22,754 nt of DNA from Betaproteobacteria bacterium (GTDB taxonomy: Bacteria > Pseudomonadota > Gammaproteobacteria > Burkholderiales > SG8-41): contig JAJTHX010000100.1 of the NCBI GenBank assembly GCA_021300125.1, positions 1-22,754 of the forward strand. Direction: 5' to 3'. The stretch's first letter is position 1, and every line of letters begins with the position of its first letter. The notes under the pieces are model-generated. The model did not search any database. It saw nothing but the letters and a program-made list of their open reading frames with translations, and was not told where the DNA came from. Both the position numbers and the translations under genes were made by a program. Shown piece after piece: positions 10,818 through 21,039 of this stretch.

Positions 10818-10830
10818 ACGACCGCCGGAC

Positions 10831-11151
10831 ATGCCGCTCGACGGATCCCCCCGATTTGCCGCCTTTCGCGCCTACACCTATGTGCGTGAACTGACCCTGC
10901 GTGAGAAGCAGCGGCTGATTGCGGAGATCCAGCAAACCCGCGGCCTGATGCCGATCCTGATGAAACCGCGCAACGGTCAGCGCTGGAGCGCCGACGACCG
11001 GGCGCAACTGCGCGATCACCTTGGCCGGCTGACGCGGCTCAGCCCCTATCTGGTGCTGGTGGTGATGCCCGGCGGTTTTTTCGTGTTGCCGGTATTCGCC
11101 TGGTGGCTGGATCGCCGGCGCGACCGCAACCGCATCCGTTTCGAGGGCTGA
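10831..11151 (+). CDS. Small membrane protein, LETM1-like domain
   Basis: A 106-residue protein starting 13 bases after soeC. The first two thirds are charged and helical (ELTLREKQRLIAEIQQTRG), followed by LRDHLGRLTRLSPYLVLVVMPGGFFVLPVFAWWL, which I quote only by its parts LSPYLVLVV and MPGGFFVLP. That mix of a Leu-rich helix, LSP and a Pro-Gly-rich hydrophobic segment resembles the core of LETM1-like domains; the similarity is weak and from memory. One membrane span is likely, with a basic C-terminal tail (DRRRDRNR). No good ribosome site is seen, so translation is probably coupled to soeC. The tight spacing suggests cotranscription with soeABC, but no role in sulfite oxidation is shown. Confidence 0.65.
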   Translation: MPLDGSPRFAAFRAYTYVRELTLREKQRLIAEIQQTRGLMPILMKPRNGQRWSADDRAQLRDHLGRLTRLSPYLVLVVMPGGFFVLPVFAWWLDRRRDRNRIRFEG

Positions 11152-11160
11152 GGGCGGTCC

Positions 11161-11751
11161 TTGGTTGCCCTGTGGTATCTGCTGCTGCTCGCCCCCTTTG
11201 TTGCACTCGCGGTGCTGTGGCTGAACTACCGGCGCAAACAGGCGGCGCGTGAACGTGAGTCGATGCAGCGCTGGCAGCGCGTGGTCGAGGCACGGCCTGC
11301 AATCAGCGGCGAGCCTTCAGTCCCTGCGCCAGCCACTGCCGCCCACCGGCTGCGGCCGCGTTTGCTGGAACCCGCCGATACCCTGCTGTTCCGCCTGCTT
11401 GCACTGAGCTTGTCGGATCACGACGTGTTTGCCGGGGTTTCGGTCGACCAGATCCTGGTGCCAGGGACCTCGCTCACCGGGCTGGAGCGCGAAGCCCGCT
11501 TGCGCGCCTGGTCGCGGATGCGCATTGATTTCCTGGTCTGCGACAAGGGGCTGCAGCCGTGCGTGGCGGTGCTGGTCGATGCCGTTGACGAACGCATGGC
11601 CCTGGTCGAGGTCCTGCGGGCTTCGGGCTTGCGCTATGTGACCCTGACCCGCAGCAGCCTGCCGGGCCGCCACCAGATGCGCGCAGTGGTCCTGGGAGAG
11701 GGCACACCGGCGGCCTCCCGTTCCAGCCCGAATTCCAACCCGGATTCATAA
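11161..11751 (+). CDS. DUF2726-like protein with N-terminal membrane anchor
   Basis: A 196-residue protein. Residues about 3-20 are hydrophobic (LWYLLLLAPFVALAVLW) and are followed by a basic, helical stretch. The C-terminal part (LLFRLLALSL, DHDVFAGVSVDQIL, RIDFLVCDKGLQPCVAVLVDAVD) follows the DUF2726 layout, a nuclease-fold-like domain in which an acidic residue in IDF and one in the VDAVD strand would sit at an active site. The TTG at 11161 is chosen because AGGG precedes it and it lies nine bases after the previous gene. It is probably the last gene of the soe transcription unit. The target and activity are unknown. Confidence 0.65.
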   Translation: MVALWYLLLLAPFVALAVLWLNYRRKQAARERESMQRWQRVVEARPAISGEPSVPAPATAAHRLRPRLLEPADTLLFRLLALSLSDHDVFAGVSVDQILVPGTSLTGLEREARLRAWSRMRIDFLVCDKGLQPCVAVLVDAVDERMALVEVLRASGLRYVTLTRSSLPGRHQMRAVVLGEGTPAASRSSPNSNPDS

Positions 11752-12230: not shown

Positions 12231-12274
12231 CGCCGCAGACGTGCTGGTCATTGCATGAGTATTCCCGGACCCTG

Positions 12275-13417
12275 ATGAGCTTCGGCGATCAACATTCCGG
12301 CTGGGATCTGCATTGCCGCGTCGTCGACAATTTCGGCGATGCCGGCGTGTGCTGGCGCATCGCGAGGATGCTCGCGAACGAGCATGGCCTGCCGGTGCGG
12401 CTGTGGATCGACCGGCCACAGACGCTGCAGGCCCTGTTGCCCGGGCTCAATGCCGCTGCCGCGGTGCAGTACATCGACGGCGTCACCGTCTGCGATGTCA
12501 CGCGCATCGCGCCGCAGCCGCAGGCTGCCGCGGTGGTGGTCGAGGCTTTCGGCTGCGGCCTGCCCGAGGACTATGTCGTGGCCATGGCGGCGATGCCGCG
12601 GCCACCGCAATGGATCGTGCTCGAATACCTGAGCGCCGAGGACTGGGTGGACGGCCACCATGGGCTGGCCTCGCCGCACCCGCGACTGCCATTGCAGCGC
12701 TGGTTTTTCTTTCCGGGATTCGGCGGCGGCAATGGCGGCCTGCCGCGCGAGCACGATCTGCTGGCACGGCGCGGGGCTTTTGATGCCCCGGCCTTCTGGC
12801 GCGAATTTGGATTTGCCCCGCCACACAGCGACTGCCTCACAGCTTCGGTTTTCGCCTATCCCGATGCGCCTCTGGCGCCGCTGATCGATGCCTGCGCTGC
12901 GGCGCACGAGCCCGCCTTGCTGGTACTGCCGGAGGGCGCAATGGCCGTGGCGGCGCGCCGGCTGCTTGGGGCGGGTGAAAGCGTCCAGTCCCTGCAGCGC
13001 GGCGCGCTCGAACTGCGCTGGTTGCCGTTCCTGCCGCAGCGCCGCTATGACGAGCTGCTGTGGGCCTGCGATCTCAATTTCGTGCGCGGCGAGGATTCCT
13101 TTGTCCGGGCACAGTGGGCGGGGCGGCCCCTGGTATGGCAGCCCTATCGGCAGGAGGATCAGGCCCACCGGCGGAAGCTCGCCGCGTTTGCCCGGCGCTA
13201 CGCCGAGGGCATGGACGCCGCTGCAGCGGCAGCCTGGAACCCGTTGGTTCAGTGCTGGAACGACAGCGACGCCGGGGGTCTGGCCCAGGCCTGGCTGGCC
13301 TGGCGTGCGCAGGGCGCCGCGCTGCAAAAGCATGCGCTGGAATGGTCGGCACGGCTCGCTGCCGGGCCTGAGCTGGTCGCGGCACTGGTCGAGTTTGTCC
13401 GCGGCAAGGTAAAATAG
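12275..13417 (+). CDS. earP: EF-P arginine rhamnosyltransferase EarP
   Basis: A 380-residue GT-B glycosyltransferase that transfers rhamnose from dTDP-rhamnose to Arg32 of EF-P. Family marks seen are the N-terminal WDLHCRVVDNFGDAGVCWRIAR (with the DNFGD aspartates), VVEAFGCGLP, YLSAEDW, and the C-terminal nucleotide-sugar site RGEDSFVRAQWAGRPLVW. Length agrees with the family. The ATG at 12275 (MSFGDQHS) is preferred; a TTG at 12251 would add eight residues without a better ribosome site. The gene lies 60 bases before efp, its substrate, the usual EarP arrangement. Confidence 0.95.
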   Translation: MSFGDQHSGWDLHCRVVDNFGDAGVCWRIARMLANEHGLPVRLWIDRPQTLQALLPGLNAAAAVQYIDGVTVCDVTRIAPQPQAAAVVVEAFGCGLPEDYVVAMAAMPRPPQWIVLEYLSAEDWVDGHHGLASPHPRLPLQRWFFFPGFGGGNGGLPREHDLLARRGAFDAPAFWREFGFAPPHSDCLTASVFAYPDAPLAPLIDACAAAHEPALLVLPEGAMAVAARRLLGAGESVQSLQRGALELRWLPFLPQRRYDELLWACDLNFVRGEDSFVRAQWAGRPLVWQPYRQEDQAHRRKLAAFARRYAEGMDAAAAAAWNPLVQCWNDSDAGGLAQAWLAWRAQGAALQKHALEWSARLAAGPELVAALVEFVRGKVK

Positions 13418-13477
13418 CGTGTTTCGCTTCTGGTGTTTACCCCGCGAATTTATTCAGCTTAATCAAGGATGTAGTTC

Positions 13478-14038
13478 ATGAAAATCGCACAGGAAATCCG
13501 CGCCGGCAATGTCATCATGGTCGGCAAGGACCCGATGGTGGTGCTCAAGGCCGAGTTCAGCAAATCCGGCCGCAATGCCTCCGTGGTCAAAATGAAATTG
13601 AAAAACCTGCTCTCCAACGGCGGCACCGAAACCGTGTACCGTGCCGACGAGAAATTCGATGTGGTGATGCTCGAGCGCAAGGAGGTGACCTACTCCTATT
13701 TCGCCGAGCCCTCCTATGTGTTCATGGATGCCGAGTTCAACCAGTACGAGGTGGACAAGGAAAACATGGGCGACGCCCTGAATTACCTCGAGGACGGCAT
13801 GCCCTGCGAAGTCACGCTCTACGAGGGACGCCCGATTTCGGTCGAGATCCCGCAGACGCTGGTGCGCGAGATCGTCTATACCGAACCCGCGGTGCGCGGC
13901 GATACCTCGGGCAAGGTGCTGAAGCCGGCGAAACTGGCGACCGGTTACGAGATCCAGGTGCCGCTGTTCTGCGCCACCGGGGACAAGATCGAGATCGATA
14001 CCCGCACCGGCGAATACCGCAGCCGCACCAAGGGCTGA
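13478..14038 (+). CDS. efp: Elongation factor P (Arg32 type)
   Basis: A 186-residue EF-P with the three-domain layout. The loop SKSGRNAS places Arg at position 32, the residue rhamnosylated by EarP, in place of the lysine used by the EpmA/EpmB pathway. EF-P binds the ribosome next to the peptidyl-tRNA and relieves stalling at polyproline motifs. The ATG at 13478 has AAGGA eight bases upstream. It follows earP in the same direction, and an intrinsic terminator lies about 40 bases after the stop, so earP-efp is a likely transcription unit. Confidence 0.98.
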
Positions 14039-14080
14039 GTCTCAAAAAATAAACCAATAAAAACAATAAGTTATATGAAA

Positions 14081-14107
14081 ACGCCGCAGTGACCCTGCGG
14101 CGTTTTT
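14081..14107 (+). terminator. Intrinsic terminator after efp
   Basis: ACGCCGCAG (14081-14089) and CTGCGGCGT (14095-14103) form a perfect 9-bp stem with a five-base loop followed by a T-run. A's upstream could also help it end rlmJ transcripts on the other strand. Confidence 0.92.
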
Positions 14108-14136
14108 GCTGGCAGCCGTGACCAGCGGCAGGCCGG

Positions 14137-14979
14137 TCATTCCCCGATCAGCCATTCACAGCGCACGCCCCCTTCGCCGGCCGGTGACAGTGCCCGCCAC
14201 AGCCAGTCGAGCAACTGCGGGGCTTCAAGGTCCAGACCGAACGGTGGATTGATCACCAGCAGGCCGCTGCCGCGGATGTGTTCGTTCCAGTCCTCGCCAT
14301 GCACCGCGAGTTCCAGCTGCAGCGTCTTCGGCAGCCCGGAAGCCTGCACGCTGCGCGCAAAGGCGGCCATGGCCGAGGGCGCCATCAGCGGATACCAGAC
14401 CGCGATCATGCCGGTGGCGAAGCGGTTGTGCGCCTCCTTCGCGGTGCGCAGCACGCGGGCGAATTCGTCAGCCTGGTCGAAGGCGGAGTCGATGAAGGTC
14501 AGTCCGCGGCGTTCGCGCGGTGGCAGGAAGGCCTTGATCGAGGTGAAGCCATCCTGGTTGTGGATCGCGGTATGGCGCGCGCCCTGCATCGCCGCCTGCA
14601 GCGCCGCGCAGTCGTCGCGGTTCAGCTCGCACAGCGCGAGCCGGTCGTTTTCGCGTATCAGCCGGCGCGCGATGCGCGGCGAGCCGGGATAGAAACGCAG
14701 GCCGCCGCCGGGATTTTCGGCGCGAACCGCATCGAGGTAGGGCTGCAGTGCCTCTGGGGCATCGCTGCGGTCGAACACGCGGGCGATGCCCTTGCGCCAT
14801 TCACCGGTTTTTTCCGACCAGGCGTGATTGAGGTCGTACAGCCCGATCCCGGCATGGGTGTCGAGGACAAAGTACGGCTTGTCCTTGCGTCCAAGCGCAA
14901 GCAGCAGCCGGCAGAGCAGGGCATGCTTGAATACATCCGACACGTTGCCGGCGTGAAACTGGTGGCGATACGAAAGCAT
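14137..14979 (-). CDS. rlmJ: 23S rRNA (adenine-2030-N6)-methyltransferase RlmJ, altered motif IV
   Basis: A 280-residue protein matching RlmJ along its full length: the N-terminal MLSYRHQFHAGNVSDVFKH, FVLDTHAGIGLYDL (SAM-binding motif I), ALCELNRDD, the AVWYPL segment and GSGLLVINPPFGL near the end. The family methylates A2030 in free 23S rRNA. The catalytic motif IV, normally (D/N)PP(Y/F), reads IDSAFDQ here, so both prolines are replaced while the Asp is kept. No clear ribosome site precedes the ATG at 14979. It converges with efp at the terminator and diverges from the RidA-family gene. The identity is firm; whether the altered motif still catalyses is uncertain. Confidence 0.93.
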   Translation of the reverse strand: MLSYRHQFHAGNVSDVFKHALLCRLLLALGRKDKPYFVLDTHAGIGLYDLNHAWSEKTGEWRKGIARVFDRSDAPEALQPYLDAVRAENPGGGLRFYPGSPRIARRLIRENDRLALCELNRDDCAALQAAMQGARHTAIHNQDGFTSIKAFLPPRERRGLTFIDSAFDQADEFARVLRTAKEAHNRFATGMIAVWYPLMAPSAMAAFARSVQASGLPKTLQLELAVHGEDWNEHIRGSGLLVINPPFGLDLEAPQLLDWLWRALSPAGEGGVRCEWLIGE

Positions 14980-15048
14980 GGGGCGGATTACATCACAACC
15001 GCGGTGCCGGCTGTGTAATCATGCGCTTTTTGCGGATGGGAGCCGATC

Positions 15049-15408
15049 ATGGGATTGCAAAGACTGCATGTCGCCGCACGCTACAGCGAGGCGGCGATTT
15101 TCAACGGCGTGGTGTACCTGGCGGGCATGGTGCCGGAGTGCGAGGCGAAGGACATCCGCAGCCAGACTGCGGACGTGCTCCAGCAGATCGACACGCGTCT
15201 TGCTGAAGCCGGCAGCCACAAGGGCCTGATCCTGCGCACGCAGATTTTTCTCGCCGACCTGCAGGACTTCGCCGGCATGAACGAAGTCTGGGACGCCTGG
15301 GTCACTCCCGGCACCGCGCCGCCGCGCGCCACCGTGCAGGCTGCACTGACCAATCCGGACTGGAAGATCGAGATCGTGGTCACCGCGGCGCAGGCGGCGA
15401 TGGCCTGA
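15049..15408 (+). CDS. RidA family protein
   Basis: A 119-residue YjgF/RidA-fold protein. Visible marks are VYLAGMVP, the central QTADVLQQIDTRLAEAG helix, and the C-terminal PPRATVQAAL with the arginine used to bind substrate carboxylates in deaminating members, followed by KIEIVVTA. GGGAG lies about nine bases before the ATG at 15049. RidA hydrolyses reactive enamine/imine intermediates, but this sequence is closer to the wider RidA subfamilies than to archetypal RidA, so its exact substrate is open. It diverges from rlmJ, and its 3' end overlaps the remnant frame of the endonuclease pseudogene by 29 bases. Confidence 0.9.
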   Translation: MGLQRLHVAARYSEAAIFNGVVYLAGMVPECEAKDIRSQTADVLQQIDTRLAEAGSHKGLILRTQIFLADLQDFAGMNEVWDAWVTPGTAPPRATVQAALTNPDWKIEIVVTAAQAAMA

Positions 15409-15865
15409 AGGAAACGCAGGCTGTTTTTCCCGGGGCAATAATCCTCAGAAATTCACATTCAAAGACGGCTCTTTCGGCCAGTAACTGCGGCGTGTATTTG
15501 CAGTTGCGTGGTGTCAGCCTCAGGTAATGTGTCAAGGCCATGTCCGCGCGCTGCTTTTTTTATGTTCGCAGATAGGGCGCGATAGCCTTCAGCAATTCCA
15601 GGGCTTGGCGGCTGCTGAGTGCGTAGGTGTGGCTCGGTGCGTGTCTGCTGCTGTAGGCGCGTTTGGCTGTAATCTTGCCAATGCCGGTCAGATCCCTGAT
15701 GAAATGGAGTAGCGTGGGCTCGGTGCTGGCTACCGACACTACCAGGCGGCGGTGCTCGCCTTTGTGCTGCGCGGTCAGTGTGATCGTTCCTTCGCCGTCG
15801 ATGATGCCGGCGATATAAGCAGTCGCCCAGTCCGGAAGCTGTTTCATGCGAGTGGCATCAGCCAT
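15380..15865 (-). pseudogene. LAGLIDADG homing endonuclease gene with internal stop codon
   Basis: The frame from the ATG at 15865 encodes the single LAGLIDADG motif as YIAGIIDGEGTITL, then a beta-strand region and QALELLKAIAPYLRT, and meets TAA at 15560-15562. In the same frame after the stop it continues KKQRADMALTHYLRL, then YTPQLLAERAVF, to TGA at 15380-15382. That is the C-terminal helix pattern expected of this family. Without the TAA the protein would be about 161 residues, a normal single-motif (dimeric) size. The TAA lies next to a run of A's and could be a TAC/TAT to TAA change. A TTG start at 15883 would overlap the ssrA terminator T-run, so an ATG (15865 or 15847) is preferred; no ribosome site is clear. 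The gene lies just beyond the ssrA terminator, outside the ssrA intron. Confidence 0.78.
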
Positions 15866-15876
15866 GGATCGAGCAT

Positions 15877-15914
15877 AAAACAAAATGGCCGCCGGACGTG
15901 AATCCGGCAGCCAT
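15877..15914 (-). terminator. Intrinsic terminator of ssrA
   Basis: On the minus strand a 12-bp stem (arms 15914-15903 and 15896-15885, one G-U pair, six-base loop) is followed by TTTTGTTTT. It begins nine bases after the tmRNA CCA end. Confidence 0.92.
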
Positions 15915-15939
15915 CGGCCAATTGGTGGAGGCGGCGGGA

Positions 15940-16208
15940 CAGCTTGTCCATGCCTTTCGGCACGGGCTGGACTATGCCTTCATCCCGGTTGCACGGGATG
16001 CGGAGCGTGTTATCCGCTTGCGCGAATCCTAGTATCTGCCCCCCGGATGCAACCCGGTCGGCAGATCTATGAGTCTCTACAGGGCAGGCCTGAAGTTGGC
16101 CCTCTTCCTACCCCTCGGCGTTGCCATGCCGTCCTTGGCGAGACGGTGCAGGTTTCACCGATGTGAGCTCCGTTTACATTCTGCTCTTGCGAACAGACGC
16201 GACCATTG
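15940..16208 (-). mobile_element. Group I intron (probably IA type) in the ssrA T-loop
   Basis: About 269 nt separate the two parts of the tmRNA T-arm. The 5' exon ends in U (16209) and the insert ends in G (15940), as group I splicing needs. The exon end CGAU pairs with GUCG at 16203-16200 with a U-G pair at the splice site (P1). Further helices on the minus strand are P2 (16196-16181, GCAA loop), P3 (16172-16167 with 16006-16001), P7 (16075-16072 with 15973-15970, beside a CATAGTCC S-type element), P7.1 (16066-16060 with 16040-16034), P7.2 (16027-16012, GCAA loop), P8 (16000-15994 with 15987-15981) and P9 (15963-15950, GAAA loop). P7.1/P7.2 point to subgroup IA. It has no internal ORF. The fold was drawn by hand; P4-P6 are not fully resolved. 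Confidence 0.88.
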
Positions 16209-16432
16209 ATCGAACCCGCGTCCGCAAGCCCTCCACAGTCAGGACTACATGCTTAGCCTGGTTGTTTGGGTTTCGCCTCGCACCCGCCAGCCGGCAGGCT
16301 GATGTTTGGCTAGTCGCTTCGACGGATCCGCAGGATTAAGCGACCAAACCCTGCAGAGAGGCTGATGTGAATGACGTTGCACCCCTTTCGGGGCCTGACC
16401 CATCAGCAGATCAGTGCAACGTCTAGCCGGTG

Positions 16433-16465
16433 TTAGGCGGCTAGAGAATAACGCTCGTCGTTGGC
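16433..16465 (-). other. ssrA: tmRNA proteolysis-tag reading frame
   Basis: Eleven codons inside ssrA: GCC AAC GAC GAG CGT TAT TCT CTA GCC GCC TAA, encoding ANDERYSLAA. With the alanine delivered by tmRNA the tag on rescued proteins would be AANDERYSLAA. The terminal LAA is the usual protease-recognition end. Confidence 0.95.
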
Positions 16466-16568
16466 GTGTATAGATTTCCAGCGGATTTACAAGGTGACTG
16501 GACCTTGGCATGCCCTGTGCTGCTTTGTGACCCACGTCGAAACCAGGTCGCCCCCAATCTGACGCTTC

Positions 16569-16600
16569 GACATTATCGCACGGCAGGGGTTCCCTGCCGG
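16569..16600 (-). promoter_or_regulatory. Probable ssrA promoter region with overlapping hairpin
   Basis: GATAAT at 16577-16572 lies 16 bases before the tmRNA 5' end, a good distance for a short leader removed by RNase P. No convincing -35 is seen. A perfect 8-bp inverted repeat (16581-16588 with 16592-16599) sits immediately upstream, just after the stop of the gene at 16609. It has no T-run, so it may be a weak transcript end or a regulator site. Confidence 0.4.
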
Positions 16601-16608
16601 ATCGAGTG

Positions 16609-17415
16609 TCAGAGACGGCGGTTCTGCTGCTTGCGCACGGCAATCCGGGAGGACGGGCGCTGCGGGGCCGGTTTTTCGGCCAGGCTCTGGGCGGTTTCGC
16701 GTTGGGCGCGCAGCATGTTGGCAACATCCTGATGCAGCGTAGCCGGCAGATCGAGGCTGGCCAGCCGGTTCATCCGCGACCGGTAGTCGGGCAGGGTATG
16801 CAGCCCGAGCATGTAAGTGAGCAGGTCGTCCGTGGTCGGGGTCGCACCCGTGGTGCGCAGGAAATCGCGCGGGAAACTCGCGCTGACACCATTGGGCGAG
16901 GGAAACAGCAGGCGGATCACGAAATCGCCGCAACTGAGGCAGAAGGGTTGGTCGGGCTCGCGAAAAACGCAATATGGGGTTTCGCTGTCGACCCAGATTG
17001 CCACCCGGCGCACGAGATCCTGGCGCAGTGCCTGCATTTCCCGGGCGGTGCGGAAAGGACGCACGCCATGCAGGTGTTCCACCCGGTAGAGTGTGCCGCC
17101 GGCTTCGATCGCGCCCAACTTGATGAAAGGGCTGACCATCACGCCAGCGCCGGGGAAGGACCAGGCAATGCGCTGATCTTCCATCTCGATGCCCACCTGG
17201 TCTTCGAGCGTGCCATCCGGGTAGGTGATCACGAAGTAATGCACATAGCCGGCCTGTCCACGGCCCGTGTTGCTGACTGCCAGCGGGCCTGCCGCGCGGT
17301 CTGCGGTGGCGTAGATCCTGGAGCCCGGTTTATGCGGCGCGGCTGCTGCGAGTGCAGGCAGCAGCGCGATCAGTGCGGCTGCAAGCAGGCCGGAAAACTG
17401 GGCAAGGTTTGGCAT
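16609..17415 (-). CDS. Exported protein of unknown function
   Basis: A 268-residue protein that I do not recognise. The ATG at 17415 gives a clear Sec signal peptide (residues about 1-26, LLAAALIALLPALAAA, cleavage near AAA-PHK). An upstream ATG at 17508 would place 31 unrelated residues before it. The mature part has strand-rich segments (HYFVITYPDGTLEDQVG, RIAWSFPGAGVMVSPF), a Cys pair in FCLSCGDFVIRLLFP next to another Cys in PYCVF, and a basic, Gln/Arg-rich C-terminus. Three cysteines close together could form a disulfide or bind metal in the periplasm. No ribosome site is obvious. It lies between ssrA and the HAD phosphatase gene on the same strand; the context does not give its job. Confidence 0.75.
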   Translation of the reverse strand: MPNLAQFSGLLAAALIALLPALAAAAPHKPGSRIYATADRAAGPLAVSNTGRGQAGYVHYFVITYPDGTLEDQVGIEMEDQRIAWSFPGAGVMVSPFIKLGAIEAGGTLYRVEHLHGVRPFRTAREMQALRQDLVRRVAIWVDSETPYCVFREPDQPFCLSCGDFVIRLLFPSPNGVSASFPRDFLRTTGATPTTDDLLTYMLGLHTLPDYRSRMNRLASLDLPATLHQDVANMLRAQRETAQSLAEKPAPQRPSSRIAVRKQQNRRL

Positions 17416-17522
17416 GAAATCGGGCAGGGAAGGCTGACAGCAAGCAGCTCGGGGAGATGCCCAACTGTAGCGTGCTTGAAAATATCCTGAAAATAACAAT
17501 TTATGCATTAATAATCAATTGG

Positions 17523-18170
17523 TTATGTAACTAAGCCAAAGATATCGAGCGCGGTGTCGACAACATGGTCGGCCCCCCAATCTTCGGGCTTGCTACCGTT
17601 GAGGTAGCCAAAACGCACGGCAATGGTGGTCATCCCGGCGGCACGGCCGGCGATGATGTCGCGCTCGTCGTCACCGACATAGGCGCAGCGCGATGGCGGC
17701 ACGCCGATGGCGGCTGCTCCGGCCAGCAACGGTGCCGGGTGTGGTTTCATGTGTGCTGTGGTGTCGCCGCCGATGAGGCAGCCCGCGCGTTCAGCGTAGC
17801 CCAGCTGCAGCAGCAGCGGCAGGGCCAGTTGCTCGGATTTGTTGGTCACGATACCCCAGCACAGGCCGGCGGCTTCGAGGCGGTCAACCAGCTCGGCCAT
17901 TCCCGGAAACGGGGTGCTGTGGATGCAGAGGTTGCGCCGGTAAAGATCCAGGAATTCCTCGCGCATGGCGGGGTAGTCCGGATGATCGGGGCCGATGCCG
18001 AAACCGGCGCCGAGCAGTCCGCGAGCCCCCAGCGAGGTGACGCGCCGGGTTTCGCTGAGGGGCACCGGAGACAGTCCGCGGTCGGCCCGCATGCGGTTGA
18101 CCGCGGCACCGAGGTCGGGGGCGGTATCGGCGAAGGTGCCATCGAGGTCAAACAGGACGGCGCCAATCAT
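17523..18170 (-). CDS. gph: HAD-family phosphatase (Gph / MupP type)
   Basis: A 215-residue HAD-IA phosphatase. Motif I is DLDGTFADT (nucleophile Asp8, acid Asp10), motif II is in IVTNKS, motif III Lys in MKPHPAP, and motif IV is VGDDERD. The ATG at 18170 overlaps the ubiG stop as ATGA; a longer frame to 18296 runs inside ubiG. Generic annotation is phosphoglycolate phosphatase. In Pseudomonas the gene beside ubiG and an MTA/SAH deaminase, near gyrA, is MupP, the MurNAc-6-phosphate phosphatase of cell-wall recycling. This neighbourhood matches, so MupP is a serious alternative. Sequence alone does not decide. Confidence 0.9.
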
Positions 18171-18871
18171 GGTCCGGGCTTGCGTGCGGCAAGGATGTAG
18201 TTGACGTCGGTATCGGGCCCGAGCGCATAGACGCGCGTCAGCGGGTTGTAGGTCATGCCGATCAGGTTCACGGTATCGAGTCCGGCGCGACGGCAATCGG
18301 CGGACAGTTCGGAGGGTTTGATGAAGCGTGCGTAGTCGTGGGTGCCCCTCGGCAGCAGGCGCAGCACATATTCGGCGCCGATGATTGCGAACAGATAAGA
18401 CTTCGGATTGCGGTTCAGTGTCGCGAAAAAGGCATGCCCGCCGGGTTTGAGCAGCATGGCGCAGGCCTTCACCACCGAGGCAGGGTCGGGCACGTGCTCC
18501 AGCATTTCCATGCAGGTCACCACGTCGAAGCTGGCGGGCCGTTCTGCGGCCAGGTCCTCGACGGCGATGCTGCGGTAATCCACTTTAATTCCGCTTTCCA
18601 GCAGGTGCAGCTGGGCCACCTTCAGCGGTTTTTCGGAAAGATCAATGCCGGTCACCTGGGCGCCGCGGGCGGCCATGGCCTCGGCGAGGATGCCGCCGCC
18701 GCAGCCGACATCGAGCACCATCTTCCCGTTCAGCGACGCGATGCGGTCAATATGTTCAAGCCGCAGCGGATTGATTTCGTGCAAGGGCCGGAATTCGCCG
18801 TTGCGATCCCACCAGCGGTGGGCGAGTTCGCCAAACTTGTCGAGCTCGGCCGGGTCGGCATTGATGCTCAT
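18167..18871 (-). CDS. ubiG: Ubiquinone biosynthesis O-methyltransferase UbiG
   Basis: A 234-residue class I SAM-dependent methyltransferase that performs both O-methylations of ubiquinone synthesis. Family marks are the N-terminal [23 protein letters not shown] (as [10 protein letters not shown]), [12 protein letters not shown] (SAM motif I), [19 protein letters not shown] and the C-terminal [12 protein letters not shown]. Length is typical. Its start overlaps the stop of the deaminase gene (ATGA at 18871-18868) and its stop overlaps the phosphatase start, so the three genes form one coupled unit. Confidence 0.97.
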
Positions 18872-20181
18872 GCGTTACCTATGCGTTGGCGCCAGCTTTC
18901 GGCGCGTTGCTGAAGGGCTTCGATGTCGAGGCCTGTGACGCGGCCGGATGTGACCCGGCGCTCGCCATGGACCCAGACATCGCTGACATGCTCGCGCCCC
19001 GCGGCATAAACCAGATGCGAAAGCGGGTCGTAGCACGGAGACAGCTCGGGGGCGTCGAGGTTCACCGCGACGAGGTCGGCCAGCTTGCCGGGCGTGATCG
19101 AGCCGATGCGGTCCTGCAGGCCCAGTGCACGGGCGCCACCCAGCGTGGCCGCCTCCAGCGCGCGCGCCGCGGGAAGCACCGGAGCCGATCCGCTGGCGCC
19201 CTTGGCCAGCAGCGCGGCCAGACGCATTTCTGCAAACAGGTCGACGCGGTTGTTGCTGGCGGCGCCATCAGTCCCCAGGCCGATGTTGACGCCGGCCGCG
19301 AGCAGTGCTGCCACCGGCGCAATGCCGCTGCCCAGCTTGAGGTTGGAGCTCGGGCAATGCGCAACCGAGCTGCCATGCCTCGCCAGCGAGAGGATTTCGG
19401 CGGCTTCCAGATGCACGGCGTGCACGGCAATCAGGCCGGGACCCAGCAGGCCCAGGCGCTCCAGTCGCGCCAGGGGGCGCGAACCGTGGCTGGTCAAGCT
19501 TTCGGCCACTTCGGTGGCGGTTTCATGCAGGTGGATATGTACCGGCAGATCGAGTTCGCCGGCATAGGTGGCAATGCGGGAGAAGGTGGCATCGGAAACC
19601 GTGAACGGGGCGTGCGGAGCGAGGCAGAAACTGAGCAGCGGTTCGCCGCGCAGCCGGTCGCGCAAAGCCATGCCTTTGCTCAGGTAGTCCTCGGCATCAC
19701 TGGCATAAGCCGATCGGAATTCCAGCGCGATGATCCCGATTGCCGCACGCATTCCCGCTCGAAGGGCGGCGCGTGCGGCGGCTTCGGGGAAAAAATACAT
19801 GTCGTTGAAGCAGGTGATACCGCCGCGCAGCATTTCTGCGCAGGCGAGCAGGGTGCCGTCGTAGACGAACTCGTCGCTGACCACGCGGGCCTCGGCCGGC
19901 CAGATGTGGTTTTGCAGCCAGTCCATCAGCGGCAGATCGTCGGCAAGGCCGCGCATCAGGCTCATCGCAGCATGGGTATGCAGGTTGACCAGGCCGGGTA
20001 TCAGGGCATGGGTCGGCAGTGCCACGCGGGCTGCGTCCGGATGGCTGGCCCAGGCTTCGGTCAGGGGCTGTACCGCGACAATCCGTTCCTCGCGGATGAC
20101 GACGGCGTGGTCGCTGAGGATGATGCCTGAGGGTTCAGCCGGAATGATCCATCGCGGTTCAATGATCGTGGCCGGTGTCAT
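18868..20181 (-). CDS. mtaD: TRZ/ATZ-family amidohydrolase, probable 5-methylthioadenosine/S-adenosylhomocysteine deaminase
   Basis: A 437-residue metal-dependent amidohydrolase. Metal and catalytic residues are visible in NLHTHAAM (HxH), [30 protein letters not shown] and the Asp of GTDGAASNN. The C-terminal beta-sandwich holds [14 protein letters not shown]. Members at this locus deaminate methylthioadenosine or S-adenosylhomocysteine, by-products of SAM use, which fits the coupling to the methyltransferase gene ubiG. The ATG at 20181 follows the ompA terminator region; no strong ribosome site is seen. The exact substrate among purine or triazine compounds is inferred from family and context. 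Confidence 0.9.
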
Positions 20182-20212
20182 GGCTCAGTTGGTACGTAAG
20201 GCATTGGGCATT

Positions 20213-20244
20213 AAAAAAAAAGCCCTGCCGAAGCAGGGCTTTTT
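20213..20244 (-). terminator. Intrinsic terminator after the OmpA-family gene
   Basis: AGCCCTGC (20221-20228) and GCAGGGCT (20233-20240) form a perfect stem with a CGAA/TTCG loop. On the minus strand it is followed by about nine T's and begins 19 bases after the ompA stop. Confidence 0.93.
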
Positions 20245-20262
20245 GGACTTCTTGCTTGCCAA

Positions 20263-21039
20263 TCAGGGCTTGGCGGCCGGCTTGGCTTCCGGCTTCGCTT
20301 CCGGCTTGGCTTCGGGTTTCGGAGCCGGCTTCGGAGTCGGATCGGCCTGGCCGACGATTTCAACCGTAACGCGGCGGTTCGGCGACAGGCACTCGATGAG
20401 TTGCTTGCGCTTCATCTTGTTGTCGCAGAACTTGGTCACGGGGATCGGCTGTTTCGGACCTTTGCCTTCCCAGAAGATCAGTTTCTGGTCGTAGCCCTTG
20501 GAGACGATGTAGTCCTTGACCGTGATCGCACGCTTCTCTGACAGCGCCATGTTGTGCTTCATGCTGCCGATGCGATCGGTGTGGCCGGTAACGATGATCG
20601 CGCCGAAGCGGACCGCGCTACGCTGCTTGTTGGCCTTGCTCAGGACGCCGAGGAAATCGTCAAGATCCTTCTTGTTGTCGGCAGTCATTTCAGCCTTGTT
20701 GAATTCCATGCCCTGGAGCTCAATTTTCTCTTCGATATTCAGGGGCTGGGGTTTCTTGGGCTTGGCGGCCGGTTTGGCTTCCGGTTTGGCTTCCGGCTTG
20801 GCTTCCGGTTTGGCGGCGGGTTTGGCGGCGGGGGGGGCCGGCTTCTTGACCAGATCCGGATCGCACTCGGCGATCGCGAGAGCCGGGGTCCACTGGCTGG
20901 TGCGCACGCACACGCCGGCGCCAGGAGCGCGCACGACGCTGCCGTCCCCGGTCGTCAGGTAACCGTCTCTGGCCTGCGCGAACGCCAGGGCGGGTATGAA
21001 CGCCGCAGCGACGACAGTGATGCTAAGAGCTGAACGCAT
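20263..21039 (-). CDS. ompA: OmpA-family outer-membrane/peptidoglycan-linking protein with KPEA repeats
   Basis: A 258-residue exported protein. A Sec signal peptide (residues 1-22, cleaved near AFA-QAR) leads into a short N-terminal segment (DGSVVRAPGAGVCVRTSQWTP). A Lys/Pro/Glu/Ala repeat linker follows (AKPEAKPEAKPEAKPAAKP), then the OmpA C-terminal domain with GHTDRIGS and CLSPNRRVTVEIVG, whose Asp and Arg bind diaminopimelate in peptidoglycan. A second block of the same repeat forms the very C-terminus. There is no room for an eight-stranded barrel, so a periplasmic or lipid-facing tether is likelier than a porin. AGGAGG nine bases before the ATG at 21039 fixes the start; a longer frame reaches 21171. 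Confidence 0.92.
   Translation of the reverse strand: MRSALSITVVAAAFIPALAFAQARDGYLTTGDGSVVRAPGAGVCVRTSQWTPALAIAECDPDLVKKPAPPAAKPAAKPEAKPEAKPEAKPAAKPKKPQPLNIEEKIELQGMEFNKAEMTADNKKDLDDFLGVLSKANKQRSAVRFGAIIVTGHTDRIGSMKHNMALSEKRAITVKDYIVSKGYDQKLIFWEGKGPKQPIPVTKFCDNKMKRKQLIECLSPNRRVTVEIVGQADPTPKPAPKPEAKPEAKPEAKPAAKP
20266..20330 (-). repeat. KPEA-coding repeats at the OmpA C-terminus
   Basis: Tandem 12-base units (GGCTTCCGGCTT-like on the plus strand) encode the Lys-Pro-Glu-Ala tail. The same unit appears in the linker at about 20758-20834, so the two blocks could recombine or slip. Confidence 0.8.
20758..20834 (-). repeat. KPEA/KPAA-coding repeats in the OmpA linker
   Basis: Tandem near-identical 12-base units encode the linker between the N-terminal segment and the OmpA domain. 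Copy number is likely to vary among strains. Confidence 0.8.

Follow-up and report, generated by a model that had tools for sequence, protein, structure and literature searches.

A T-loop group I intron and a separate downstream LAGLIDADG gene form a probable two-part mobile unit at a bacterial tmRNA locus

Introduction

Group I introns at position 7 of the T-loop of transfer-messenger RNA (tmRNA; gene ssrA) were reportedly treated in earlier work by Williams in 2002. The accessible parts of a recent survey record 883 unique forms of tmRNA intron in 21 phyla, mostly at position 7, with a homing-endonuclease gene (HEG) inside just 36 of the 883, as against 54% for archaeal rRNA introns (Nawrocki, Petrov and Williams 2025, PMC11915505). 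Here we analyze 22,754 nt of DNA from a Betaproteobacteria bacterium (contig JAJTHX010000100.1, the whole stretch being called the window), in which ssrA is interrupted in the T-loop by what we identify as a 269-nt group I intron, and a LAGLIDADG HEG lies outside the gene, 57 nt downstream. A preliminary description made from the sequence alone had recognized the intron and missed the HEG, which is the more novel part. It had also called tmRNA introns known but rare, and the survey figures agree with the first adjective but not with the second.

Compared with the position-7 introns in the accessible parts of that survey, the one in the window is alike in gene, site (TTCGAT^T), short length, U-G pair at the 5' splice site, and terminal G. 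It is unlike them in that the HEGs described there lie only inside introns, whereas here the HEG is outside the gene and past a terminator-like hairpin. Closer in layout are the phage pairs said to move by collaborative homing, described in the available text of PMC3984707, PMC10448857, PMC4227781, PMC6083498, and PMC2988022, and mentioned in general terms in that of PMC2814812. They include F-CphI with the psbA intron of cyanophage S-PM2 (PMC6083498) and the T3/T7-like and ICP1 cases (PMC10448857); the trans homing of T4 mobE and the nrdB intron is similar (PMC2988022). As far as these excerpts go, the phage pairs share with our locus a target interrupted by an intron whose HEG is missing or dead and a free-standing HEG beside the intron-bearing gene. 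Our locus differs in lying on bacterial chromosomes, in an RNA gene, with a LAGLIDADG enzyme and in several phyla, and it is known here from sequence.

We recognized no HEG outside a tmRNA gene in the open literature on tmRNA/ssrA introns or free-standing endonucleases, covered mostly as titles and the beginnings of abstracts, and the portions of PMC8172020 and PMC1995217 that were covered report none. Within the limits of that literature, the arrangement is novel. We consider it quite likely that the T-loop intron and the separate downstream HEG constitute a two-part mobile unit that spreads by collaborative homing.

Results

The ssrA gene and its interruption

On the minus strand, ssrA runs from 16555 to 15923 and, as read directly, is split after T-loop nucleotide 6 by 269 nt (16208-15940). 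Its parts are as follows.

16209..16555, minus strand: tmRNA (ssrA) 5' exon, through T-loop nucleotide 6 (RF00023 match, acceptor strand read directly, boundaries from a pairing script)
16433..16465, minus strand: tag-peptide frame ANDERYSLAA-stop (by translation, with GCC as the presumed resume codon)
15923..15939, minus strand: tmRNA 3' exon TCCCGCCGCCTCCACCA, comprising T-loop nucleotide 7, the 3' strands of the T-stem and acceptor stem, and the encoded CCA (read directly)

The tmRNA begins at 16555 with the acceptor 5' strand GGGGGCG, and the 5' exon ends at 16209 with the T-stem/loop GCGGGTTCGAT. Joining the exons yields a T-stem of 5 bp, a loop of 7 nt (TTCGATT), and an acceptor stem of 7 bp that includes one G-U. 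A script demanding those pairings alone arrived at identical exon/insert boundaries. Both the interruption proposed in the preliminary description and its coordinates were thus recovered, and excising 16208-15940 restores the stems and loop as it had said, the G-U in the acceptor stem being our addition. The covariance-model check it had suggested gave a match of Rfam tmRNA RF00023 to 16547-16207 at 139.2 bits (cut-off 47; E 7.2e-55), omitting just the acceptor stem and the 3' strand of the T-stem, the parts separated by the intron. ARAGORN called no tmRNA at this locus. The gene is a standard one-piece tmRNA; a two-piece or permuted form was rejected given the standard gene order and a tmRNA_permuted match below the cut-off, the alignment of which terminates at the same GCCUAA as the tag frame. 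Likewise rejected was an integration element with a second 3' exon beyond the HEG, because the window holds no second exact copy (the 3' exon sequence occurs once perfectly and once elsewhere with 3 mismatches).

Relatives show what the site looks like without the insert. The T-arm is intact by the script's test in 27 of the 28 intronless relatives fetched, with the loops TTCGATT (17), TTCAATT (9), and TTCGATC (1); the remaining one, L033, also has an intact T-arm on reading, with a CCA end that is one base too short. A genome of the same genus, G015, is colinear with the window on both flanks (16209-20828 and 12297-15408) and carries TTCGATTCCCGC uninterrupted, with no match to the intron or the HEG. 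When the intron and its exon ends were compared with 100 genomes, two matched across the intron (the window's own and its family mate G027, whose relative intron is 87% identical across intron and exon ends), 68 matched in the exon part only, and 30 not at all. As far as sequence goes, in a window and relatives many of which are draft or metagenome assemblies, the intact T-arms and the empty site in G015 confirm that the insert is beyond chance.

The insert as a group I intron

The intron and the elements of its core that were placed by position are these.

15940..16208, minus strand: group I intron, 269 nt, lineage A, ending in G (supported by alignment A2, pair counts, the G015 empty site, and the G027 relative)
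16200..16203, minus strand: internal guide GUCG, pairing with exon CGAU (16212-16209), with U-G at the splice site (conserved in 39 introns)
16167..16172, minus strand: P3 5' strand, partner 16006-16001 (pairs in 39/39)
16072..16075, minus strand: P7 5' strand GACU, partner AGUC 15973-15970 (paired and invariant in 39/39)

Alignment A2 comprises 39 homologous introns, in which pairs were counted on a structure set from the window sequence; it excludes 10 of the 49 eligible introns (3 Bacillota and 7 others that we picked, several being near-duplicates) and four longer inserts. Across ten helices (P2, P3, P4, P5, P6, P7, P7.1, P7.2, P8, and P9), 93.7% of 2183 cells pair, versus 72.2% after shuffling and at most 44.3% when partners are slid. 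The covariation score is 0.594 versus 0.209 shuffled and at most 0.185 slid, and 494 versus 184 cells are altered on both sides, although cells are not independent events because much of the covariation is one split between two intron lineages. P2, P7.2, and P9 vary inside the lineages as well. In the pseudoknot helix P3, two adjacent pairs are altered on both sides in 16 of the 39 introns and a third in 10, while P7, being invariant, allows no covariation test and is uninformative. P8 and P7.1 are weaker, pairing in 75% and 82%. Telling against the fold, two of five pair measures barely exceed shuffles; pairs altered on both sides number 35 of 56 versus 32.0 (3/500 shuffles as high), and pair types 90 versus 86.0 (54/500 as high). 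In support of the internal guide, intron letters G5, G6, T7, G9, and C10 are invariant and C8 is conserved in at least 90%.

Rfam RF00028 (Intron_gpI) failed to match the window even with E<=10 allowed, and at the gathering threshold it matched none of 20 relatives, although the Rfam library detects other group I introns in this analysis. The preliminary description had set down such an outcome as speaking against its claim. We dropped Intron_gpI as proof of identity, regarding a match to it as a means of detecting group I introns and not as what defines them. We used comparative folding in its place, and hold that the covarying ten-helix fold with its P3 pseudoknot outweighs the missing match. 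An independent tie comes from a covariance model built from the 3' half of the intron (hereafter the intron model), which weakly matches four Gammaproteobacteria loci away from tmRNA:

L202:1361-1645, L203:1323-1587, L204:1472-1726, L205:1-2247: weak intron-model matches outside tmRNA, three of them Intron_gpI group I introns and the fourth within a 23S rRNA match

The smaller features named in the preliminary description, that is, the exon U-G in P1, the terminal G, and the GNRA loops GCAA (P2), GCAA (P7.2), and GAAA (P9), are all present. Taken together, these results support the insert as a group I intron in the tmRNA T-loop, and its P7.1/P7.2 insertions, the sole basis for a subgroup, fit IA. 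The intron should self-splice and restore the tmRNA, and it seems fair to expect that ribosome rescue would depend on this. We give very little credence to a dead gene, in which the insert no longer splices, ssrA is a pseudogene, and other factors perform rescue. Such a state would go with the broken HEG described below, and in a genome only 80% complete (422 contigs) a further copy or rescue system could have gone unnoticed. Against it, the window keeps every core helix and all invariant letters of the 39-intron alignment, the exons keep the tag frame, T-stem, and acceptor stem, and no second tmRNA above the cut-off was found in the genome.

A LAGLIDADG gene outside the tmRNA gene

Downstream of the encoded CCA, the following features lie on the same strand as ssrA.

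15884..15915, minus strand: hairpin resembling a terminator, separating ssrA from the HEG (the region holds 2 versus 1.4 expected by shuffling)
15560..15865, minus strand: LAGLIDADG HEG (PF14528), from ATG to an in-frame TAA (15562-15560), motif IAGIIDGEG
15437..15559, minus strand: HEG frame beyond the stop, still matching the family (profile match 1-143 of 147 with one TAA inside)

The HEG starts beyond the hairpin, and hairpins of this kind come after the CCA in 41 of 47 relatives versus 5 of 47 shuffled sequences. PF14528 matches it at 1.2e-4 and 22.7 bits, barely over the cut-off of 22.5, and Pfam found nothing in the 15437..15559 piece taken alone. It is 55% identical over 85 residues to its intact counterpart in G027, carries the LAGLIDADG motif with the conserved acidic residue, and has an intact homolog that models with an I-MsoI/I-CreI fold. 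I-MsoI and I-CreI are encoded inside group I introns; the window-type HEG shares 16-21% identity with them in the aligned part and, unlike them, is encoded outside the intron. A HEG inside the intron was rejected as an arrangement, since the window has none and at 64 loci with an intron-model match the HEG is likewise outside, beyond the CCA. At this locus, then, a free-standing HEG adjoins an intron without a HEG of its own.

The gene in the window looks inactivated. Its in-frame stop suggests that the unit here is probably in a decay phase, and the stop is possibly a sequencing error in the assembly. In G027 (L039:5466-6101), an open frame of 211 codons from GTG runs from the intron interior through the 3' exon into the HEG; this is probably chance, because the window has no such frame.

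Co-occurrence of intron and HEG

Genome samples drawn without regard to HEG show how often the two parts occur together. In the Gammaproteobacteria, the class of the window (369 genomes including its own), a strong intron match (E <1e-15) was present in 22 genomes and a HEG in 19. The HEG lies downstream in 17 of the 22 intron genomes versus 2 of the 347 others (Fisher p 5e-23), or in 16 of 21 when the window's own genome is left out; of the 26 genomes with an intron-model match, four with weak matches, none at the genome's tmRNA, were excluded. The 17 adjacent HEG matches start 47-173 nt past the CCA on the same strand, and comprise 8 full-length genes, 8 broken or truncated ones, and 1 split by a contig end. 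Both genomes with a HEG and no intron have a decayed HEG directly after an intronless tmRNA. A search for remnants in the five intron genomes lacking a HEG returned only short matches to the first 35 residues of one predicted protein over the tmRNA 3' end, which we took for a mispredicted start.

Presence is patchy. Among 74 genomes of the window's own family, the intron occurs in 3, each the sole carrier seen in its genus, and the HEG sits beside it in the same 3; one weak HEG match occurs besides, in G024. Of 198 Nitrospirota genomes, 4 have strong introns, 3 with a HEG and the fourth at a contig end; G552 has a decayed HEG 90 nt past an intronless tmRNA, one more weak HEG match was seen, and five genomes with weak intron matches stayed outside the counts. 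The 289 Bacilli genomes hold 9 introns, one with a HEG fragment 1.2 kb away, and HEG matches elsewhere in two more genomes. G481 and G482, which opened the Nitrospirota and Bacilli samples, had been chosen for their HEG, and without them HEGs accompany 2/3 and 1/8 introns. The two parts are thus strongly associated in Gammaproteobacteria and weakly in Bacilli, and the association is seen in a few Nitrospirota.

To look from the HEG side, we took the 156 genome loci that encode the family and classified the best 80. A tmRNA lies within 3 kb at 75 of them, 65 with a T-loop insert; these loci were found via the HEG, so the fraction does not carry over to introns in general. The intron model matches 64 of the 80, and the tmRNA 5' part was found in 63 (50 by the pairing script and 13 by Rfam), whereas that of L123 would fall beyond the fetched stretch. 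One further tmRNA (L119) has a 375-nt T-loop insert with no intron-model match, L091 and L115 are cut by contig ends, and no tmRNA lies within 3 kb at L074, L124, and L126. Among the 64 intron-model loci, 53 have the HEG on the strand of the tmRNA, with its start 46-187 nt past the CCA. In the other 11 it is convergent, at a distance of 21-52 nt in nine and of 605 and 2615 nt in the remaining two. In 52 script-placed inserts (51 of the classified loci plus G027), TTCGAT precedes the insert in all 52 and T follows in 51.

At intronless tmRNAs, the state of the HEG may go with that of the T-arm. The T-loop differs from TTCGATT beside nine of ten intact HEGs, and beside decayed HEGs the T-arm is exactly GCGGGTTCGATTCCCGC, the consensus, in 3/3. 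This is no more than suggestive of self-protection by an altered T-arm, as the ten loci include six from candidate phyla and one unclassified, in which T-arms may differ anyway, and three close relatives; moreover, the T-stem also varies among intron-bearing loci (GCGGG in 42/52). The ratio of nonsynonymous to synonymous change (dN/dS) in HEG pairs is 0.05-0.23 in 8 of 12, 0.58 in one, and saturated in 3; these are rough values, with dS >1.7 in 5 of the 8 low-ratio pairs. At L094, L095, and L098 (Seongchinamella and an uncultured gammaproteobacterium), an intact HEG adjoins an intronless tmRNA with the T-loop TTCGAGA or TTCGAAA, and dN/dS is 0.05-0.06 with dS >1.7.

These data bear on whether the downstream protein might be a maturase aiding intron folding and splicing, as some LAGLIDADG proteins are. 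The maturase 2ab5 and the bifunctional 1p8k are among the structural matches of the HEG model. The model best resembles single-motif DNA endonucleases, however, the adjacent HEG is broken in 8 of 17 cases, 5 of the 22 introns lack one, and the Seongchinamella-group HEGs keep their low dN/dS beside intronless tmRNAs, so we regard a maturase as highly improbable.

In G113, a 680-bp block running from the tmRNA 3' end and including a decayed HEG is repeated ~8.4 kb downstream at 99% identity (L200:2426-3105 and 10821-11499), which resembles duplication of an attachment region by an island.

Histories of intron and HEG compared

Trees were built from 44 of 46 eligible loci (42 in the last exon tree). 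They contain two intron lineages, of 28 and 16 loci, each on one side of a fully supported branch of the intron tree where long branches meet. Mapped onto the HEG tree, the lineages need 8 changes, of which supported branches force only 1; on the exon tree they need 10, with 4 forced. Tight coevolution of intron and HEG was rejected, as distances do not support it, and the two look like exchangeable allies at one site and not like a fused element.

Several results weigh against a joint mobile unit. Five of the 22 Gammaproteobacteria introns have no HEG, and in Bacilli only 2/9 have an adjacent one, on the opposite strand (convergent). Ten intact HEGs adjoin intronless tmRNAs, one of which (L086) has the standard loop TTCGATT, with an altered stem. 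On the exon tree, intron types are scattered about as much as shuffled labels would be (63/500 shuffles as low), and after correction for exon distance little correlation is left between intron and HEG distances (partial r 0.11, p 0.004). In a HEG tree of poor resolution, the genes of the window and G027 stay apart although their introns and exons group together, and the window HEG frame is interrupted, not full length.

Some of these results would follow if the tmRNA intron were an ordinary one and the free-standing HEG an independent element, the two merely sharing a hotspot and the HEG homing to its own flank site without moving the intron. The tmRNA 3' end draws many elements, HEGs adjoin the ten intronless tmRNAs, HEG and intron trees differ, and the partial correlation is weak. 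Such sharing does not sit well with a HEG that is far commoner with the intron (17/22 versus 2/347), nor with the T-arms at intronless tmRNAs, altered in loop (9/10) or stem (the tenth) beside intact HEGs and of consensus form (3/3) beside decayed ones. We therefore judge a shared hotspot unlikely, if clearly less so than a maturase or a dead gene, and keep to the two-part unit.

Viral and plasmid relatives

The locus has no DNA match in phage records. HEG relatives occur in 9 phage records at 28-33% identity, in viral contigs at 42% at most among the matches listed, and not in plasmids; a phage or plasmid origin was rejected on these grounds. At 80 viral loci, again among the matches listed, ARAGORN found a tmRNA in 3 and Rfam, run on 10 of the 80, in two more, versus 75/80 chromosomal loci; the intron model matches 7 (8 matches).

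In two viral contigs (L262:2867-3882 and L271:2899-3979), a tmRNA 5' part and an intron 3' part flank an opposite-strand LAGLIDADG frame. As at the window locus, a HEG accompanies a tmRNA with an intron-model match, these HEGs being distant relatives (39% and 31%). The difference is that their flanked, opposite-strand position apparently places them inside a phage tmRNA intron. Such phages are a possible vector. In three others (L267:2568-3381, L264:2589-3393, and L261:3001-3699), HEG relatives adjoin a phage tmRNA with no detected intron, two of these tmRNAs being permuted.

Neighboring genes

Beyond the HEG, window positions 12251-15408 hold EarP and EF-P genes, then RlmJ and a RidA-like gene; EF-P also assists stalled ribosomes. 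Short stretches at 20267-20334 and 20758-20832, within and beside an OmpA-family gene, match more than one place in relatives' DNA.

Discussion

We conclude that many tmRNA T-loop introns move by collaborative homing with an external HEG, and infer the steps of splicing, T-arm cleavage, and joint transfer of intron and HEG as follows. The HEG product would be a single-motif, I-CreI/I-MsoI-like LAGLIDADG endonuclease that most likely binds the uninterrupted T-arm, which is suited to a homodimer because the T-stem is a natural inverted repeat, and most likely cuts intronless ssrA near the intron site. By splitting this target, the intron would shield its own chromosome. When intronless ssrA DNA meets the locus, the break would be repaired from the locus and the intron copied, and co-conversion over ~100 bp would copy the HEG along with it. 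We take as support the position of the HEG, its co-occurrence with the intron, their joint absence from the empty site in G015, the low HEG dN/dS, and the frequent HEG decay, which is expected as target sites become filled. For joint transfer in particular, the patchy co-presence in 3/74 family genomes and the joint absence in G015 stand against distances and trees that are not congruent.

A broader proposal is one we favor with less assurance: that collaborative homing is a major route for tmRNA introns on bacterial chromosomes, with a dedicated homodimeric LAGLIDADG clade beside the gene that reads the inverted repeat required of every tmRNA T-stem and assists two or more separate intron lineages at a single site. 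If so, the T-arm palindrome would account for the location of the known tmRNA intron subsites in the T-loop, and one homing cycle would pass through the recurring states of a HEG alone with an altered T-arm, a HEG outside with an intron, a HEG inside an intron, and a decayed HEG.

The arrangement looks like collaborative homing outside phages. It may explain how tmRNA introns move although most carry no mobility gene, and a recurrent external HEG offers a directly testable answer to how HEG-less introns reach 21 phyla. Annotation that ends at the CCA of the gene can overlook half of the element. These loci offer many natural snapshots of an intron and an endonuclease becoming, or failing to become, one mobile element.
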